From Armatimonadota bacterium (GTDB lineage Bacteria; Sysuimicrobiota; Sysuimicrobiia; Sysuimicrobiales; Kaftiobacteriaceae), in NCBI GenBank assembly GCA_031081675.1, contig JAVHLZ010000014.1:1-59361 (forward strand): 59,361 nucleotides of DNA, given 5' to 3'. Positions 47,836-59,361 of the stretch are shown here, piece after piece. The notes under the pieces are model-generated. The model had not been told where the DNA came from and ran no database searches. It worked only from the letters and a program-made list of their open reading frames with translations. Made by a program: the position numbers and the translations under genes. How positions within the stretch are numbered: position 1 is the stretch's first letter; every line of letters starts with the position of its first letter.

Positions 47836-48724
47836 CCTGACCGTCGTCGTCCCCACCTACAACCAGGCCGAGCTGCTGCGGGAGTGCCTGCGGTCGCTAG
47901 TAGACCAGACGCTGCCCACAGACCGCTACGAGGTCATCGTGGTGGACGACGGGTCCACCGACCACACGGCGGCCGTGCTGCGGGAGTTCAGCCCCCGGGT
48001 GCGCGCCGTGCGGCTGCCGTCCAACCGCGGCCGCAGCGCCGCCCGCAACGCCGGCATCCGGGAGGCGGCGGCGCCGCTGGTGGTCCTGATCGACAGCGAC
48101 ATCGTGGTCCGCCCCGATTTCCTCGACCGTCACCTGGACGTCCACCGCCGCCGCGGCCCGGGGGTCGTCTCCCGCGGGCCGGTGGTCGACGTGCCCGACG
48201 CGGCCACCGCCCGGCGCTCCCGGCTGCGGTGGGTCCCTCCCTCGCCGGCGTTTCTGACCACCGCCAACGCCGCCGTGGAGAAAGCGGCTCTGCTGCGGGC
48301 GGGCCTGTTTGACGAGGACTTCCCCGGCTACGGGTGGGAGGACTTTGAGCTGGGGCTCCGGCTGCAGCGGCTGGGGCTGCGGCGGGTGTTCTGCCGTCAG
48401 GCCGTCGCGTTCCACCTGGCGCCGGCCGCCCGACCCGTCGATGTGGATGCCCTCCTGGCGAAGGAAGAGGACCGAGCCCGCAGCGCGGTGCACTTCTACC
48501 GCAAGCACCCCACCTTTCAGACCCGCATCCTCATCCAGGCCACGCGGCTGCACCGCCTGCTGTACTGGCTCCAGACCGCAGGAGGCTTGACGACCCGCGA
48601 AAACATCCGGGCCGTGACGTCGGCCTTAAGACGGCACCGCCTGGGAGGTCTGGCGGACCTGGCGCTGCGCGGCGTGCTGAACCGCCACTACCTGTACACC
48701 CTGGAAGGAGCCCTCAAAGAGTGA
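47828..48724 (+). CDS. family 2 glycosyltransferase
   Basis: Cytoplasmic GT-A enzyme of 298 aa. LTVVVPTYNQAELLRECLRSL and VIVVDDGSTDHT form the nucleotide-binding region; VVLIDSDIVVRPDF carries the DxD-like metal motif; FDEDFPGYGWEDFELGLRL is the usual acceptor-site ED motif. A basic C-terminal tail (TSALRRHRLGGLADLALRGVLNR) may be membrane-apposed. It overlaps genes on both sides (8 bp, then GTGA) and likely adds a sugar to the lipid-linked glycan exported by the neighbouring ABC protein. Confidence 0.9.
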   Translation: MPDLTVVVPTYNQAELLRECLRSLVDQTLPTDRYEVIVVDDGSTDHTAAVLREFSPRVRAVRLPSNRGRSAARNAGIREAAAPLVVLIDSDIVVRPDFLDRHLDVHRRRGPGVVSRGPVVDVPDAATARRSRLRWVPPSPAFLTTANAAVEKAALLRAGLFDEDFPGYGWEDFELGLRLQRLGLRRVFCRQAVAFHLAPAARPVDVDALLAKEEDRARSAVHFYRKHPTFQTRILIQATRLHRLLYWLQTAGGLTTRENIRAVTSALRRHRLGGLADLALRGVLNRHYLYTLEGALKE

Positions 48725-51054
48725 ACCAGGAGACCTGGTGGACGCGCCTCACACGCCTGCTGATCCTGGGCACCGCCCTGGTCTTCAGCTCCGGCTACGC
48801 GGCCGCGGGCCTGTTCCTCCTGCTGGTGTTCGGCGTTGCGGAAAGCCTGGCGACGCGGCGGATCCCCTGGGAGCGGAGCCCGCTGGACCTGCCCCTGGCG
48901 GCATTTGTCGCCGCGTTTCTGCTGGCGGGGGTGGCGTCCCCCTACCGCGGCACCGCCACGGGGTCCGCCGTGCTGTCGGCCCTGGTGCTGTGGGCGGGAT
49001 TTGCCCCCTTCTACCGGAACCTGCGCGGTAGGCCCTCGCTGGGGGTGGCGCTGGTCCGGGCGTGGGTCGCCGGCGGCCTGGGGGCGGCGGTGTGGACCCT
49101 TGCCAGTACCCCGCTGACCGGCCGGGCCGAGCTGCCGGCCCTGTCGGTAAACCCGCTGGGGACGACGCTGATGATCGCGTGCGTCCTCAGCCTGGGCCTG
49201 GCGATGACGTCTGCGGGGGCGGTCCGCCTGCTGGCCGCCGCGACCGGAGCGACCTCTGTCCTCGCCCTCGCCCTCACGTACTCCCGGGGGTCCTGGGTGG
49301 GCGCCGCGGCGGGAGTGGTCGCACTGCTCGTGATGGTGCGGGGACGGTGGGTGGCACCGGCACTGGTGTCGCTGGCAGCCGCCGCCGCCGTCTGGGTGGT
49401 GCTGTTCCCCTCGGCTGGACCGGGGATTGTGCAGCGGGCAGCCACCATCTTCAATCCGGCCGCCAACGAGGACCGCCTCGCCCTGGCCCGGGCGGCCCTC
49501 GCCATCTTTCGTGACCACCCGCTGGTGGGGACGGGGATGAACACTTTCTGGATGGTGCACCCGGACTACGTCGTGGTCGATGCAATACCCCGCGCGTTCG
49601 CCCACAATATCATCCTCAACGCGGCGGCCGAAGGGGGACTGGTGGGGCTGGCGGCGTTGGTCGCCGTGATCGCTGGCGCCCTGGCAGCCGGCTACCGGTG
49701 GCGCCGCGCGGCGGCCACGCGGGAGGAGCGGATCCTCGCCGCCGCGGTGCTGGCGGCGTTTGTGGGCCTGCTGGTGAGGGAGCAGTTCGACGGGACAATC
49801 ATGACCGTCAACGTGGCGGCAGGGTTCTGGATGCTGGTCGCCGTGCAGGCGGCATTCTCACAACATCGCCAGCCTGCCCCGGTCTCCGGGGATCCGGCCC
49901 CGCTGGCGGGCCGGCCGTCGGTCCTGGTGGTCAGCAACGGCCACGGGGAGGACGCCGTGGGGATGGTCCTGGCGCAGGCCTTGCGCCCGGCGGCAGATGT
50001 GGCGGCCTTTCCCCTGGTCGGCCTGGGCACGGCCTACCGCGACATCCCGCTCCTGGACCCCCGGCGCGCGCTGCCCTCGGGGGGGTTCGGATTCCGCAAC
50101 CACCTGCCGGGCCTGCTGGCCGACCTGCGCGCCGGCGTCCTGCGCCTGTGGTGGCAGCAGCGGCGCACCCTGCGGGCGTGCCGCGGCCGGTTCGACGCGG
50201 TGGTGGCGATTGGGGACTTCTACTGCCTGTGGATGGCCGCCCACGCCGGCCGGCCGGTGGTCTACATCGCCACGGCCAAATCCGAGCACGGCGAGCCTCA
50301 CCAGTGGCTGGAGCTGCGGCTGATGCGCCGGCTGCCCGCGGTCGTGTTCGCCCGGGATGCCCTCACCGCTTCGGCCCTGGCGGCCCGGGGCGTCCCGGCG
50401 CGCCATGTGGGCAACCCCCTGATGGACACCATCGGCCCCGACGGCACGGACCCCCGCCTGGACCCGCGCCTGCCGACGGTACTCCTGCTGCCGGGAAGCC
50501 GCCAGGAGGCCTACGGCAACCTGGAGCTGCTGCTGGCCCTGGCGGGCCGGGTGGGCCGGACGGAGCGGGTCAACCTCGTGTGCGCGCTGGCGCCGTCTCT
50601 GGACCTGGACCGCGTGCACGCGACAGCCGTGCGGGCCGGGTGGCAGGCGGACGGAGACGTGCTGCGCTCTTCGGAGGCGGCCGTGCGCCTGACGGGCGCC
50701 TTCGGCGCGGCCGTGCGCGTCGCTGATGTGGTGGTCGGGCTGGCCGGAACCGCCAACGAGCAGGCGGCGGGACTGGGCAAACCCGTGGTGGCGTTCCCGG
50801 GTCCCGGCCCCCAGTTCACGCGCCCGTTCCTGCGGCTGCAGCAGCGCATCCTGGGAGATGCGGTGGTGGCGGTGGGCTCCTGGGACGAAGCCGCGGAGGC
50901 CGTCCTGCGCCTGCTGGGAAATCCCGCCGAGCGGGCCCGCAGAGGCGAGGCAGGACGGCAGCGGATGGGGCCCCCCGGAGCCGTCAGTCAGATCGCGGCG
51001 GAGGTGCTGGCCCTGCTGCCCCGGCCCGCGGCGTCGTCCCCTAGTAGTTCTTGA
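48721..51054 (+). CDS. fusion of O-antigen-ligase-like membrane domain and LpxB-like domain
   Basis: Single protein of 777 aa. Residues about 1-385 form ten or more membrane helices with the Wzy_C/WaaL-like loop IFRDHPLVGTGMNTFWMVHPDY followed by HNIILNAAAEGGLVGL. Residues about 398-775 are an LpxB-related GT-B domain: SVLVVSNGHGEDAVGMVLAQAL, VVAIGDFYCLWMAA, KSEHGEPHQW, NPLMDTIG, LLLPGSRQEAYGNLELLLAL and GLAGTANEQAAGLGKPVVAFPGPGPQFTRPF. The frame is continuous and joined by a Pro-rich linker (RQPAPVSGDPAPLAGRP). Starts at GTG overlapping the GT2 stop (GTGA). It could combine glycan ligation with a glycosyl transfer step. Confidence 0.85.
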   Translation: MNQETWWTRLTRLLILGTALVFSSGYAAAGLFLLLVFGVAESLATRRIPWERSPLDLPLAAFVAAFLLAGVASPYRGTATGSAVLSALVLWAGFAPFYRNLRGRPSLGVALVRAWVAGGLGAAVWTLASTPLTGRAELPALSVNPLGTTLMIACVLSLGLAMTSAGAVRLLAAATGATSVLALALTYSRGSWVGAAAGVVALLVMVRGRWVAPALVSLAAAAAVWVVLFPSAGPGIVQRAATIFNPAANEDRLALARAALAIFRDHPLVGTGMNTFWMVHPDYVVVDAIPRAFAHNIILNAAAEGGLVGLAALVAVIAGALAAGYRWRRAAATREERILAAAVLAAFVGLLVREQFDGTIMTVNVAAGFWMLVAVQAAFSQHRQPAPVSGDPAPLAGRPSVLVVSNGHGEDAVGMVLAQALRPAADVAAFPLVGLGTAYRDIPLLDPRRALPSGGFGFRNHLPGLLADLRAGVLRLWWQQRRTLRACRGRFDAVVAIGDFYCLWMAAHAGRPVVYIATAKSEHGEPHQWLELRLMRRLPAVVFARDALTASALAARGVPARHVGNPLMDTIGPDGTDPRLDPRLPTVLLLPGSRQEAYGNLELLLALAGRVGRTERVNLVCALAPSLDLDRVHATAVRAGWQADGDVLRSSEAAVRLTGAFGAAVRVADVVVGLAGTANEQAAGLGKPVVAFPGPGPQFTRPFLRLQQRILGDAVVAVGSWDEAAEAVLRLLGNPAERARRGEAGRQRMGPPGAVSQIAAEVLALLPRPAASSPSSS

Positions 51055-53872: not shown

Positions 53873-54505
53873 TTACGGGGCGGTGGACGGGGGCCCCGAT
53901 ACGATGTCCGGCGGCAGCGGGACGTTGAGGCGGTAGTTGCGGTAGCTGAGAGAGGCGGTCACCGGAAACAGCGTGGGGATGGACGCCCGGGCGGCGTCGG
54001 GCAGCAGGTAGCCTTCGATCTCCGCATAGTGGTAGCGCACCTGCAGAGGGCCCCACGCGTAGCGCAGGGTCGCCTCCAGGACCAGCCAGCGGCGGGCGTC
54101 GATCAGGGCCGTCACCGACGGCGGGTTCACCGCCGGCCGCAGGGCCTCCAGTTCCACCTCCAAGGTCTGCTGGTCCGCCCAGCGGACGCCGGAGGCACGG
54201 TAGTCGGCCAGCACCTGCTGCGGGGAGGACACCAGCTGGAAGGTGTTGCCCAGCGACCGCAACGCCGCCGGCGCCTCGTGGACGACTACCCGGTAGACGG
54301 CGGGGCGGGCGGCGTAGACCGTCGTGCGCAGGATGAAGCGGAAGATCCCCAGCACCCGCACGTCCGCGTCCTGCTCCACGATCAGCGTCCGCAGCGTCGG
54401 GTTGACTGCTTCCAGGCGACGGACGACCTCCGCGAAGGTGGGAGCGGGGTCCGTGCCGCCGGCGCCCGCCGCGCTCGCGGCGACAGCGAGGCCTACCACG
54501 GCCAC
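53873..54505 (-). CDS. exported LolA-like protein of unknown function
   Basis: Predicted secreted or periplasmic protein of 210 aa. The hydrophobic start AVVGLAVAASAAGA followed by a small-residue site looks like a signal peptide when translation begins at GTG 54505; a longer open frame reaches 54685 but crosses a GGGGTCTGACCCC palindrome and has no homology. The body has a LolA/RseB-like flavour (FAEVVRRLEAVNPTLRTLIVEQDADVRV, RPAVYRVVVHEAP, WLVLEATLRYAWGPLQVRYHYAEIEGY), beta strands with a lipid-like half-barrel pattern. Its role, perhaps lipid or lipoprotein handling, is not established. Confidence 0.6.
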   Translation of the reverse strand: MAVVGLAVAASAAGAGGTDPAPTFAEVVRRLEAVNPTLRTLIVEQDADVRVLGIFRFILRTTVYAARPAVYRVVVHEAPAALRSLGNTFQLVSSPQQVLADYRASGVRWADQQTLEVELEALRPAVNPPSVTALIDARRWLVLEATLRYAWGPLQVRYHYAEIEGYLLPDAARASIPTLFPVTASLSYRNYRLNVPLPPDIVSGPPSTAP

Positions 54506-54539
54506 GAGGCACCACCCCGCGGGCCCGAACGCACCGAAT

Positions 54540-54557
54540 GGGGTCTGACCCCTTTTT
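54540..54557. repeat. GGGGTCTGACCCC palindrome followed by TTTTT
   Basis: A perfect 6-1-6 palindrome with five Ts on the plus-strand 3' side. It could act as a short terminator on the plus strand or be a copy of a dispersed palindrome. It lies just upstream of the LolA-like gene start. Confidence 0.4.
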
Positions 54558-54726
54558 GCTCGTTTTGCCCGGCGAAGCGGAACGGTAAACGCGATGTGAA
54601 CGGGACGAAATGGCCGGACATGGAGGGTCTGCCCCCTGTTCCCCTGCGGGGGCTGTGCCCGCGCCACGGAATTCAGCCGGTCCATGGTCAGAACACCGAC
54701 AGTGACCGCCGCTCCCGCCCGCGTGG

Positions 54727-55428
54727 TCAGCGACGGCGCCCCTCGTCGGCCTCCGCCGACGAGGCCGGGGGCACGGAAGGCGGGGACAGGAGACCCGCCA
54801 GAGCCGCCAGGGCGGCCGCCTGGGCGCGGTTGCGGACGCGCAGCTTGCGGTAGGTCGCCTTCAAGTGCGTCTTGACGGTGGCCTCGGACAGGAACAGCCT
54901 CTTGCCTATTTCCCGGTCGCTGAGTCCGGAGGCCACCAAACGCAGAATTTCCACTTCTCGCTCCGTCAGCCCAATCGCCCGCGGGGACGGCGGACCGGCT
55001 CCGTTGCCCGATCCCAGCCGCGCCACCAGGTGGCGGGCGATCCGGGGATTGAGCATCGCCTGGCCGCTGGCCACCCGGCGGACGGCGCTGAGCAGGTGCT
55101 CGGGCTCAATGTCCTTGAGCACATACCCCACCGCTCCCGCCTCCAGCGCCCGCACCGCCTCCTCGGGGTCCTCCCGCTGGGTAAGGACGAGCACGTTCGC
55201 GCCCGGACACCTGGCGTGAATCGTCCGGATGGCCTCCACGCCGTCGTCGTCGGGAGTAAACGGTTCGATGACCACCACATCCGGCCGCTCCGCGCAGGCA
55301 AGCCTGACGGCTTCGCGCGCGGAGGCGGCCTGCCCGATCACGGAAATGTCCGGCGCCCGGCGCAGCAGTTCAGCCACCCCTGAGCGGATGAGGGGCTGGC
55401 TGTCCACGATGAGAAGCCGGATCCCCAT
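54727..55428 (-). CDS. atypical NarL/LuxR-type response regulator without phosphoacceptor Asp
   Basis: Transcriptional regulator of 233 aa: receiver domain (1-120) and a LuxR HTH (about 152-215, LTEREVEILRLVASGLSDREIGKRLFLSEATVKTHLKATYRKL). In the receiver the residue aligned with the phosphorylated Asp is E55 (VVVIEPFTPDDDG), and one of the two acidic-pocket residues is S10 (IVDSQP). T83 and K105 of the switch are kept. A Glu at the site mimics phosphorylation, so the protein may be permanently active or use another input. No histidine kinase is nearby. Ala-rich C-terminal tail. Start ATG 55428. Confidence 0.9.
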   Translation of the reverse strand: MGIRLLIVDSQPLIRSGVAELLRRAPDISVIGQAASAREAVRLACAERPDVVVIEPFTPDDDGVEAIRTIHARCPGANVLVLTQREDPEEAVRALEAGAVGYVLKDIEPEHLLSAVRRVASGQAMLNPRIARHLVARLGSGNGAGPPSPRAIGLTEREVEILRLVASGLSDREIGKRLFLSEATVKTHLKATYRKLRVRNRAQAAALAALAGLLSPPSVPPASSAEADEGRRR

Positions 55429-55708: not shown

Positions 55709-56548
55709 TCAGGGACGGCCCGAAGAGGAGATCAGCACCGCCCCGTACTGGGCAGCGGCCTCCCGCGCCGAGGGGTGAATGACAAAACCGAACAGCACGG
55801 TCACCGGGGGGCCCGGCAGCTGGGCCGCCAGGCGCTGCGCCTGCCGTGCCGCCAGCTCCACGTCCCGCCCGTAGATCCGGCTGCGGACCTCCCCCACCAC
55901 CACCACGACCTCGCCGTCCCGCCGGCCTTCTCCGTACAGGTCGACTTCTACCTCCTGCCCGTCCACGGAGAAGAACCGCCGGTCCAGGCTCGCGACGGTG
56001 ATCCCGTAGTGCTGGGCGAGATAGGCCGGCGTCACCTCGCGGGCCAGGTCTTCCAGAGTGAACCCGATCGTCTCCGCCAGCCGGCCGACCTGCCGGGCCA
56101 GATCGTCCACGCGCTCCCCCAGTGTGCGGACCGTCTCCTCGGTCCGCCGCTGCGCGTCGGCCAGCTGGTCCACCCGCGCCGCCAGCGCCTCCAACCGCTC
56201 CTCGGTCCGCCGCTGCGCGTCGGCCAGCTGGTCCACCCGGACCGCCAGCTGGTCCACCCGCGCCGCCAGCGCCTCCAGCCGCTGCTCGGTTCGCCGCTGC
56301 GCGTCGGCCAGCTGGTCCACCCGCACCGCCAACGCCTCCAACCGCTCTTCGGTTCGCCGCTGCGCGTCGGCCAGCTGGTCCACCCGCGCCGCCAGCGTCT
56401 CCAACCGCTGCTCGGTCCGCCGCTGCGCGTCGGCCAGCTGTTGCAGCGACTGCTCCAGGCCCGCAAACCGTTCGTCCGCCCGGGCCTGCGCTTCCGCCAA
56501 CCGGGTGAGGGCCGCCTCCAGCCTGTCGAGTCGCGACACGCGCGCCAT
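55709..56548 (-). CDS. long coiled-coil protein with repeat array and nuclease-like C-terminus
   Basis: Protein of 279 aa. Residues about 10-165 are a continuous coiled coil built of five near-identical 21-residue units ([21 protein letters not shown]), each three heptads, with one extra single heptad between units three and four. The C-terminal part ([52 protein letters not shown]) has the E/D-(x)n-E-V-K-like pattern of PD-(D/E)XK nuclease relatives (DUF3782-like), here ExR. Start ATG 56548 with GAGGAG upstream; earlier frame is not conserved. Similar proteins are common in thermophiles and cyanobacteria, with unknown role. Confidence 0.75.
56106..56440. repeat. 63-bp tandem repeats inside the coiled-coil gene
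   Basis: Five copies of a 63-bp unit and one extra 21-bp step encode the 21-residue heptad units. Copies are nearly identical at the DNA level, so unequal crossing-over could change the coil length in frame. Confidence 0.75.
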
Positions 56549-56763
56549 AACCAGGTCGCTCCTCAAACTATCGTAGTTGGCTCCTCGCGCGATGTCAAAG
56601 AAACAAGCCACTGTGACTGTCGGCTCAGAGTGTACTGCGGCAGGCAGGCGCGAAAGATCGAGCCGGAAGAGGAATTTCACCAGCGAAAGCAAAGAAAATG
56701 CAGGTCGCAATCGCGCGATCGTGCGATCAATGCCCGGAGAATACAAACCCGGTTCTGGTTACC

Positions 56764-57857: not shown

Positions 57858-59282
57858 TCAGTCCCCCGTCCACTGCGCTGCCACTTCCACCCCCCAGTCG
57901 GTCTCGGTTCTGCCGGGCACGTGTCCCGCGTTCTCGCGGCGCACGACCCACGGCCGGATGGTGGCCACCAGTCCGCCCGGCCCCCCGCCCACGCGCCAGT
58001 CCACCCCCACCACCAGCGAGTACTCCACCACCCCCCGGAGGAACGCGTACGTGGTCGCCTCCGTCAGATCCGTCCAGAACCGCCCTACCTCGCCCTCACC
58101 TTTGCGGATGTAGGTCGCCCACAGGGTCGGCGACGCCGTCGAGGATAGCGTCCACCGCAGGTGGAGGGCATCAAAATCGGCGCCCAGCGGGTGGGCCAGG
58201 GGGAACCCGCGCAGCAGGTAGTGGAGCGCCGGTCGGCTGGCCGAGTACGTCCAGTTCGGGACCACGGTGTACTGGATCAGGTAGCCGCCTCCTTCCCGGC
58301 GGGCCGTCTGCACCCCGACCGTCGCCCCCCACCGCCACGGGAACGGATTGGGCGGCAACGTCAGGTCGTCAATGAGCACTTCTCCGTACAGCCGCAGCCC
58401 GGGGTGGGGCAGCCACTCCAGGTCCACGGTGCCGAGGTAGTTGTCGTCGATGCCCTGTTGTTGTGCCCGCAGCACGTGGCCCAGGATCTGGTTGATCAAA
58501 AAGGGCACCGGCTGGACCACGTACACCCAGTAGGGGGCGCCGTCCATGACGACCGCCTCGCTGAACCCCAGGCGCAGGTGTGGCCGCACCATCCAGTCCG
58601 CCCGGCCGGCCACCAGCGAGCGACCACCGTCCAGCCAGCCCACCACCTTGGTGTACCGGACCGTGGGCCAGGCGACAGAGTACTGGAGCCTGTCAAACGG
58701 CGGGGCGGCATCCGCAAACAGCAACCCGCCCGCCCCGCCCGGTCCCCAGCCCATCCGCTCCCGGCCCAGCAGGAAGGGAGACTCCGGACCGACCCACATC
58801 CCCGCGGTGGGCGAGTCCACCGCCCACCCCACCATCCCCTGAGTCGCACGGTACGGCGTGGAGACCAGTGCGAAATAATCCCGCTGAAGCGCATAGAGCC
58901 TGGCGACGTTGCCGCCCGCAACTCCCACGCCCGCGACTAGCCACTCTTCCGGGCCGGCCTCCCACCTCAGGCGGTCAAGCATCTGCCTGTCGGCCGGCGC
59001 CAGCAGGGCCACGGCGGAACTGTCCACCTCGCGCAGCGCCGCCCGCAGCTCGACCGCCGCCACCGGCCGCCTCGTCCCTGTCCAGAGCGGCAGGATGCCC
59101 AGCGTCTTGAGCCTGTCCACAACCTCCACGGACCACGGCAGAGCCAGGGCCGCCGGTGGGCGCACCAGCATCCCCGCGGCCAGCAGACAAAGGACCACCA
59201 CCGGCGCGGTCCCGCGGTGCGCCCGCGGAGCAGAACCGGCGGCCGACCTCCCCGGCCCGCGCCGCCGCCACCAGGTTCTCAC
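57858..59282 (-). CDS. Wzi-like outer-membrane capsule-assembly protein
   Basis: Predicted outer-membrane barrel of 474 aa. A signal-like hydrophobic segment (VVVLCLLAAGMLVRPPAALA, about 27-50) is followed by the CapsAssemb_Wzi pattern PESPFLLGRERMGWGPGGAGGLLFADAAPPFDRLQYS and repeated beta strands ending in WGVEVAAQWTG. Wzi binds exopolysaccharide at the cell surface. The start is the GTG that overlaps the upstream gene's TGA (GTGA); an upstream TTG is less likely. Fits the polysaccharide genes at 44.7-52.6 kb. Confidence 0.7.
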   Translation of the reverse strand: MRTWWRRRGPGRSAAGSAPRAHRGTAPVVVLCLLAAGMLVRPPAALALPWSVEVVDRLKTLGILPLWTGTRRPVAAVELRAALREVDSSAVALLAPADRQMLDRLRWEAGPEEWLVAGVGVAGGNVARLYALQRDYFALVSTPYRATQGMVGWAVDSPTAGMWVGPESPFLLGRERMGWGPGGAGGLLFADAAPPFDRLQYSVAWPTVRYTKVVGWLDGGRSLVAGRADWMVRPHLRLGFSEAVVMDGAPYWVYVVQPVPFLINQILGHVLRAQQQGIDDNYLGTVDLEWLPHPGLRLYGEVLIDDLTLPPNPFPWRWGATVGVQTARREGGGYLIQYTVVPNWTYSASRPALHYLLRGFPLAHPLGADFDALHLRWTLSSTASPTLWATYIRKGEGEVGRFWTDLTEATTYAFLRGVVEYSLVVGVDWRVGGGPGGLVATIRPWVVRRENAGHVPGRTETDWGVEVAAQWTGD

Positions 59283-59361
59283 CGGGCCTTCACGCAAGCG
59301 ATGGCCGCCCGGGCAAACTCCGGCGCATCGGCCCGCAGGCTGTAGTACACGAAGGATCCCC
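59279..59361 (-). CDS. C-terminal end of an unidentified gene (truncated by the window)
   Basis: The last 26 codons read GSFVYYSLRADAPEFARAAI and six more residues, then TGA overlapping the Wzi start. Coding is supported by the GTGA overlap. Too short to name; it may belong to the same exopolysaccharide operon. Confidence 0.5.
   Translation of the reverse strand, partial: GSFVYYSLRADAPEFARAAIACVKAR

Follow-up and report, generated by a model that had tools for sequence, protein, structure and literature searches.

The question raised by this locus is whether a response regulator of the NarL/FixJ type, in which the phosphate-accepting aspartate has become glutamate, could be held in an active-like state without a kinase, the glutamate serving as a natural phosphomimetic. 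The gene lies in a window of 59,361 nucleotides, which is the whole stretch of DNA analysed and also the whole contig. An earlier note on this DNA had described its product as a phosphomimetic orphan regulator. The gene and its parts are as follows.

54727–55428, minus strand: NarL/FixJ-type regulator with a pseudo-receiver (E55, S10) and a GerE/LuxR helix-turn-helix (HTH), from the ORF, Pfam, alignment and AlphaFold2.
55066–55419, minus strand: receiver domain, residues about 4–121, with a (beta-alpha)5 fold, from the Response_reg match (residues 6–117), the model and a fold match.
55399–55401, minus strand: codon of S10, which replaces the second Asp of the metal-binding DD pair, from alignment.
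55264–55266, minus strand: codon (GAA) of E55, the former phospho-Asp position, from alignment.
54805–54969, minus strand: GerE/LuxR-type HTH DNA-binding domain, residues 154–208, from Pfam.

The ORF starts with ATG and encodes a protein of 233 amino acids. Its receiver is recognized by the Pfam Response_reg model with 79.3 bits (cut-off 30.2), and the HTH, considered intact in the earlier note, is confirmed by a GerE score of 68.7 bits, well over the cut-off of 23.5. The succession of receiver and GerE/LuxR HTH, full-length alignments with NarL and VraR, and the fold matches assign the protein to the NarL/FixJ subfamily. NarL, DosR and VraR/LiaR are its top relatives of solved structure by sequence. 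In all five phmmer alignments, with E. coli NarL (1a04), DosR/DevR (3c3w) and VraR/LiaR (5hev, 7ve6, 4gvp), E55 occupies the phospho-Asp column and S10 the column of the second Asp of the DD pair; the phosphorylation site is ungapped (LLDLNMP in NarL, VIEPFTP here). The replacement of Asp at E55 is seen also in an alignment of 74 rows described below. The coordinates of the gene and both substitutions had thus been read correctly in the earlier note. Since E55 and S10 align ungapped with these two Asp residues, the NarL, DosR and VraR alignments rule out the possibility that the note had raised against its own reading, namely that another Asp occupies the site; D60–D62 fall on the ordinary loop after it. 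Relative to the canonical response-regulator set, the second acid of the DD pair is Ser and the acceptor Asp is Glu, while the first acid, Thr and Lys are kept. The switch residues T83, Y102 and K105 are all present, and their combination with E55 is, at the level of sequence, what is expected of a natural phosphomimetic.

The AlphaFold2 model, built on an alignment of 52 rows, has a mean pLDDT of 84.5 and comprises a (beta-alpha)5 receiver, a helical linker and the HTH. The modelled receiver superimposes on the N-terminal domain of VraR (7ve6) at 1.0 Å over 135 columns and on DesR receivers at 1.2–1.8 Å. VraR/LiaR and NarL are among the top fold matches. Neither the model nor the fold comparison distinguishes the active from the inactive state.

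Judged by its residues, the regulator belongs to the pseudo-receivers (aspartate-less receivers, ALRs), an already catalogued class in which a single gene of this kind is ordinary. Glu is the commonest replacement of the lost phospho-Asp, found in 26% of ALRs, in which the first acid is retained in 65% and the second position is acidic in 29% (PMC4395418). It is named a phosphomimetic in many regulators and may mimic phosphate by binding Thr and Lys, although this has been disproved in some cases (PMC12632262). The usual uptake of a phosphoryl group is presumably lost here, since Glu stands in for the acceptor Asp and Ser for the direct metal ligand of the DD pair. Given the change of the phosphate-accepting Asp to Glu, the regulator probably does not need the usual kinase for its action. 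E55, with its longer acidic side chain, would most likely pair with K105 and T83, and this pairing would bias the intact Thr–Tyr switch toward the active, dimerizing state. A regulator biased in this way could bind DNA without a kinase, and the amount made or a partner would then determine how active it is. A phosphomimetic, constitutively active regulator is plausible because the Thr-Tyr-Lys switch is intact and Glu appears to have been gained repeatedly in receivers that keep the switch. Of the reading in the earlier note, an atypical (pseudo-receiver) regulator without a linked kinase is well supported, but its phosphomimetic and constitutive character is only plausible.

The substitution is singular within its own genome. 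Pfam finds 21 receiver matches there, and 22 receivers were aligned from the 18 stretches covering them; 18 are canonical and four non-canonical. Glu stands at the phospho-Asp column only in the regulator at 54727–55428, the other 21 receivers carrying Asp. Close copies (E <= 1e-50) occur in two of ten genomes of the family, namely its own and one of a different genus (G003). The G003 copy is the nearest relative (63% identity over the matched stretch); it has Asp-Asn at positions 9–10 and Glu at 55, encoded by GAG. Between the two genes, the NG86 estimates are 0.30 for dN and 1.08 for dS (dN/dS about 0.28). Since the Glu of the G003 copy is encoded by a synonymous codon and dN is well below dS, E55 is a genuine residue and purifying selection acts on the gene. 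A sequencing error or assembly artefact is ruled out, the relative from another genus having Glu by a different codon.

Relatives were searched in 61 genomes and then in 43 genomes of the order Sysuimicrobiales (Ca. Sysuimicrobiota). From the loci found, 82 receiver-bearing ORFs were taken, of which 74 entered the tree (one, G057, from outside the order) and eight were dropped (six shorter than 200 aa, two OmpR-type). Residue 55 is Glu in ten rows from nine genomes, Asp in 63 and Val in one; these shares are not frequencies in the order, because the rows were picked by similarity to the query. On the best tree, built without the five key columns, Glu-55 corresponds to five changes, at least three of them forced by supported branches. 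A single Glu-55 clade is rejected with p-AU 5.6e-9, in a test that presumes a group named beforehand and that may be affected by attraction of long branches. The query and the G003 copy are joined with full support, the tree resolving no sister to the two; the closest Asp-bearing relatives (e.g., the G016:C7 copy) reach 54% identity. Glu-55 therefore seems to have originated repeatedly in these related bacteria, in at least three lineages of the order.

All ten Glu-55 rows are non-acidic at the second DD position (Gly in four, Pro in two, Ser, Asn, His and Ala in one each), and all keep Thr/Ser83, Tyr102 and Lys105, as well as Pro at D+4, Gly at D+8 and Ile at K+2. Among the 42 canonical rows, defined by both acids, Asp, Thr/Ser and Lys, Tyr is also present in every one, and Thr/Ser, Tyr and Lys occur together in three of the 22 other non-canonical receivers of the sample. 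This contrast is a pattern and not a probability, the Fisher value of 4e-6 counting kindred rows as independent. Ile at K+2, which moves CheY toward its active form (PMC12632262), is not specific to the Glu-55 rows because it is the commonest residue in the canonical relatives too (24 of 42). The bulky Gln at T+1 (Q84) is shared by the query and its 63% relative and is absent from the other eight Glu-55 rows; the pocket-lining S10, F57, Q84 and R85 are unlike most canonical relatives.

The coupling of Glu with loss of the second acid, complete in the sampled rows of the order, is not general: among 19 loci picked by patterns, one of which contains Glu, ten have Glu at the site, and six of these, none of the order by title, keep an acidic residue at the second position. 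A rule that Glu-55 entails loss of the second acid is thus rejected; the share of Glu-bearing loci among the 19 carries no meaning. An independent-pairs test of the coupling has three supported pairs, too few for significance. Within the order, the combination of Glu-55, loss of the second acid and a kept switch fits phosphomimicry, short of proof. What the present analysis adds is that Glu-55 arose more than once within a single order, in receivers whose switch is intact. We also consider, as a speculative and rather unlikely generalization, that NarL-type regulators of Ca. Sysuimicrobiota repeatedly and in parallel became kinase-free "on" regulators through two shared steps, in which the second metal-binding acid was lost and the Asp of the site changed to Glu; selection would have kept the switch, and some of these regulators lie at surface-polysaccharide loci. 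If true, nature would have run a phosphomimetic experiment in replicate, for which close kin that retain Asp and a linked kinase are the controls.

The surroundings of the gene were inspected for kinases, partners and possible targets; three neighbouring genes are relevant.

57858–59297, minus strand: Wzi-like capsule assembly protein, 2.4 kb upstream of the regulator (PF14052, 31.2 bits, cut-off 30.1).
53873–54685 (start may be 54505), minus strand: next gene downstream, an ORF possibly co-transcribed with the regulator, its product probably exported (by eye).
48721–51054, plus strand: Wzy_C/O-antigen-ligase-like protein, part of a glycan cluster.

No HATPase_c domain is found on the contig, whose end lies about 3.9 kb from the gene on its upstream side, and 16 places elsewhere in the genome match this domain. 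The statement of the earlier note that no kinase is nearby holds on the contig, but the proximity of the contig end limits it. It is also untrue of every Glu-55 gene, because those of G037:C99 and G039:C79 adjoin an OmpR-type regulator with its own kinase. A second NarL-type regulator is likewise absent from the contig, where the only receiver match is the regulator itself. The next gene downstream matches no Pfam or NCBIfam family. Its 5' part or leader contains the near-palindrome GGGGTCTGACCCC (54540–54552), which occurs at 19 places in the genome, some clustered, against none for the reversed control, and resembles a dispersed repeat. Just upstream of the regulator, positions 55709–56746 encode a coiled-coil protein with repeated units, whose library matches are coiled-coil noise.

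Further downstream on the same strand are a CehA/McbA-like PHP protein (below cut-off) and a PMT_2 glycosyltransferase, and the glycan cluster at 44.7–52.6 kb comprises LpxB-like, ABC transporter, GT2, Wzy_C and PMT_2 genes. By neighbourhood, the Wzi-like gene is a possible target of the regulator. The G003 copy, missed by our custom gene caller, which performs poorly on that genome, comes after a UDP-sugar dehydrogenase and a GT4/CoA-binding sugar transferase; a search of the window's own genome, made without a positive control, did not find such a dehydrogenase. The Glu-55 gene of G025 precedes a polysaccharide-export operon (Poly_export/SLBB), and the same order is seen by eye in G028. Genes for exopolysaccharide (EPS) thus adjoin three of the ten Glu-55 genes (G003, G025, G028), and the window's own lies near capsule/O-antigen-like genes. 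The neighbourhood hints that surface-polysaccharide genes may be controlled by the regulator, a weak suggestion because the other six Glu-55 genes are not at EPS genes (contexts were read for five of them, the sixth lying at a contig edge) and EPS loci also hold several Asp-55 relatives (gene names mostly by eye). Regulation by c-di-GMP of the VpsT/CsgD type is ruled out: the VpsT motif is W[FLM][TS]R, and the protein contains no Trp. The NCBIfam CsgD model scores 70.1 bits on it, far under its cut-off of 250.

Other degenerate receivers were encountered in these genomes. In the window's own genome, a Poly_export/Wzz-like operon (G000:C1:3568–5813; L112, L093) is headed by another degenerate NarL-type regulator, in which Arg replaces Lys and the DD pair is missing or displaced; a NusG-like gene comes next, and related copies in G003 (C299, C115) share contigs with Wzz-like genes. 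Divergent pairs of NarL-type regulators occur in relatives (L048, L051, L052, L053, L068), several of them at EPS loci. In these pairs, one partner carries the motif LLDQ(D/E)(M/I)PG and has its switch Thr replaced by Ala, with Gly or Ser at this position in further members of its clade; the L048 locus also encodes a HisKA_3 kinase. Three genomes (L064, L070, L071) encode degenerate receivers of yet another kind, with Asn-Ala for the DD pair, the Asp retained and Tyr in place of Lys.

Phosphomimicry, in which Glu-55 would hold a kinase-independent regulator active-like, is the most likely explanation of its activity, and we regard it as about evenly balanced. Besides the bulky Q84, the non-specific Ile at K+2 and the coupling that fails outside the order, it counts against this reading that the loss of the metal ligand takes away part of the normal active-state chemistry and that, in published cases, Glu in this position need not be what makes the protein active (ChxR, PMC4395418; PMC12632262). 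The main rival, possible if somewhat doubtful, is that a small ligand or a protein partner drives the pseudo-receiver, the role of Glu-55 being limited to maintaining the fold of the metal-free pocket; the partner might be another regulator of the NarL type, by analogy with the BldM-WhiI and RcsB-RcsA heterodimers. This mode appears to match the sequence nearly as well: BldM and WhiI provide a precedent for dimers independent of phosphorylation (PMC4125116), ALRs may accept other input signals (PMC4395418), related NarL-type regulators form the divergent pairs noted above, and four pocket residues of the query depart from most canonical relatives. Against it, the contig holds no such partner, and a mere structural filler would not need the Thr, Tyr and Lys that every Glu-55 row keeps.

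It is quite improbable that phosphorylation still drives the regulator, through an unlinked or off-contig kinase and at Glu-55 or a neighbour (D60–D62, T83). The first acid, T83 and K105 are retained, and a kinase could lie beyond the nearby contig end or at one of the HATPase_c places elsewhere, but acceptor and direct metal ligand are both lost, D60–D62 belong to an ordinary loop, and the other receivers of the genome all have Asp at the aligned column. Decay of a regulator whose receiver is losing function, which the absence of two catalytic residues and of a close copy from eight of the ten family genomes might suggest, is very improbable indeed: the low dN/dS between two genera, the Glu kept through a synonymous change, the HTH score and a full-length model with confident domains all speak against it.

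Among known systems, the solved structures closest by sequence, NarL (1a04/1rnl), DosR (3c3w) and VraR/LiaR (4gvp, 5hev), all carry Asp at the site. ChxR of Chlamydia trachomatis has, like the window regulator, a native Glu in place of the phospho-Asp; it binds DNA constitutively and has been shown to be active without phosphorylation, but it belongs to the OmpR/PhoB and not the NarL/FixJ subfamily, and its Glu is dispensable, DNA binding and activity persisting after replacement (PMC4395418). BldM and WhiI of Streptomyces are, as described in PMC4125116, orphan atypical regulators of the same NarL/FixJ subfamily that form homo- and heterodimers without phosphorylation, and WhiI lacks one of the two Mg-binding Asp residues; neither is described there as carrying Glu in place of the phospho-Asp, the Lys kept here is missing from WhiI as well, and no partner gene stands beside the window regulator. 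The 2025 review of pseudo-receivers (PsRs) describes 20 atypical regulators, all but two of them orphans, and calls the on/off switching of PsRs a mystery (PMC12632262). With Glu-bearing regulators that arose separately and have an intact switch, and with Asp-bearing kin for comparison, a single-residue swap could ask whether a natural Glu is phosphomimetic. The window regulator resembles the ALR/PsR class in the change of phospho-Asp to Glu, in the first acid kept with the second lost, and in being an orphan gene (PMC4395418, PMC12632262). Both residues of the Thr-Tyr pair are retained in 47% of PsRs, and in contrast to many of them the window regulator retains the whole Thr-Tyr-Lys switch together with the loop Pro (D+4) and Gly (D+8) (PMC12632262).
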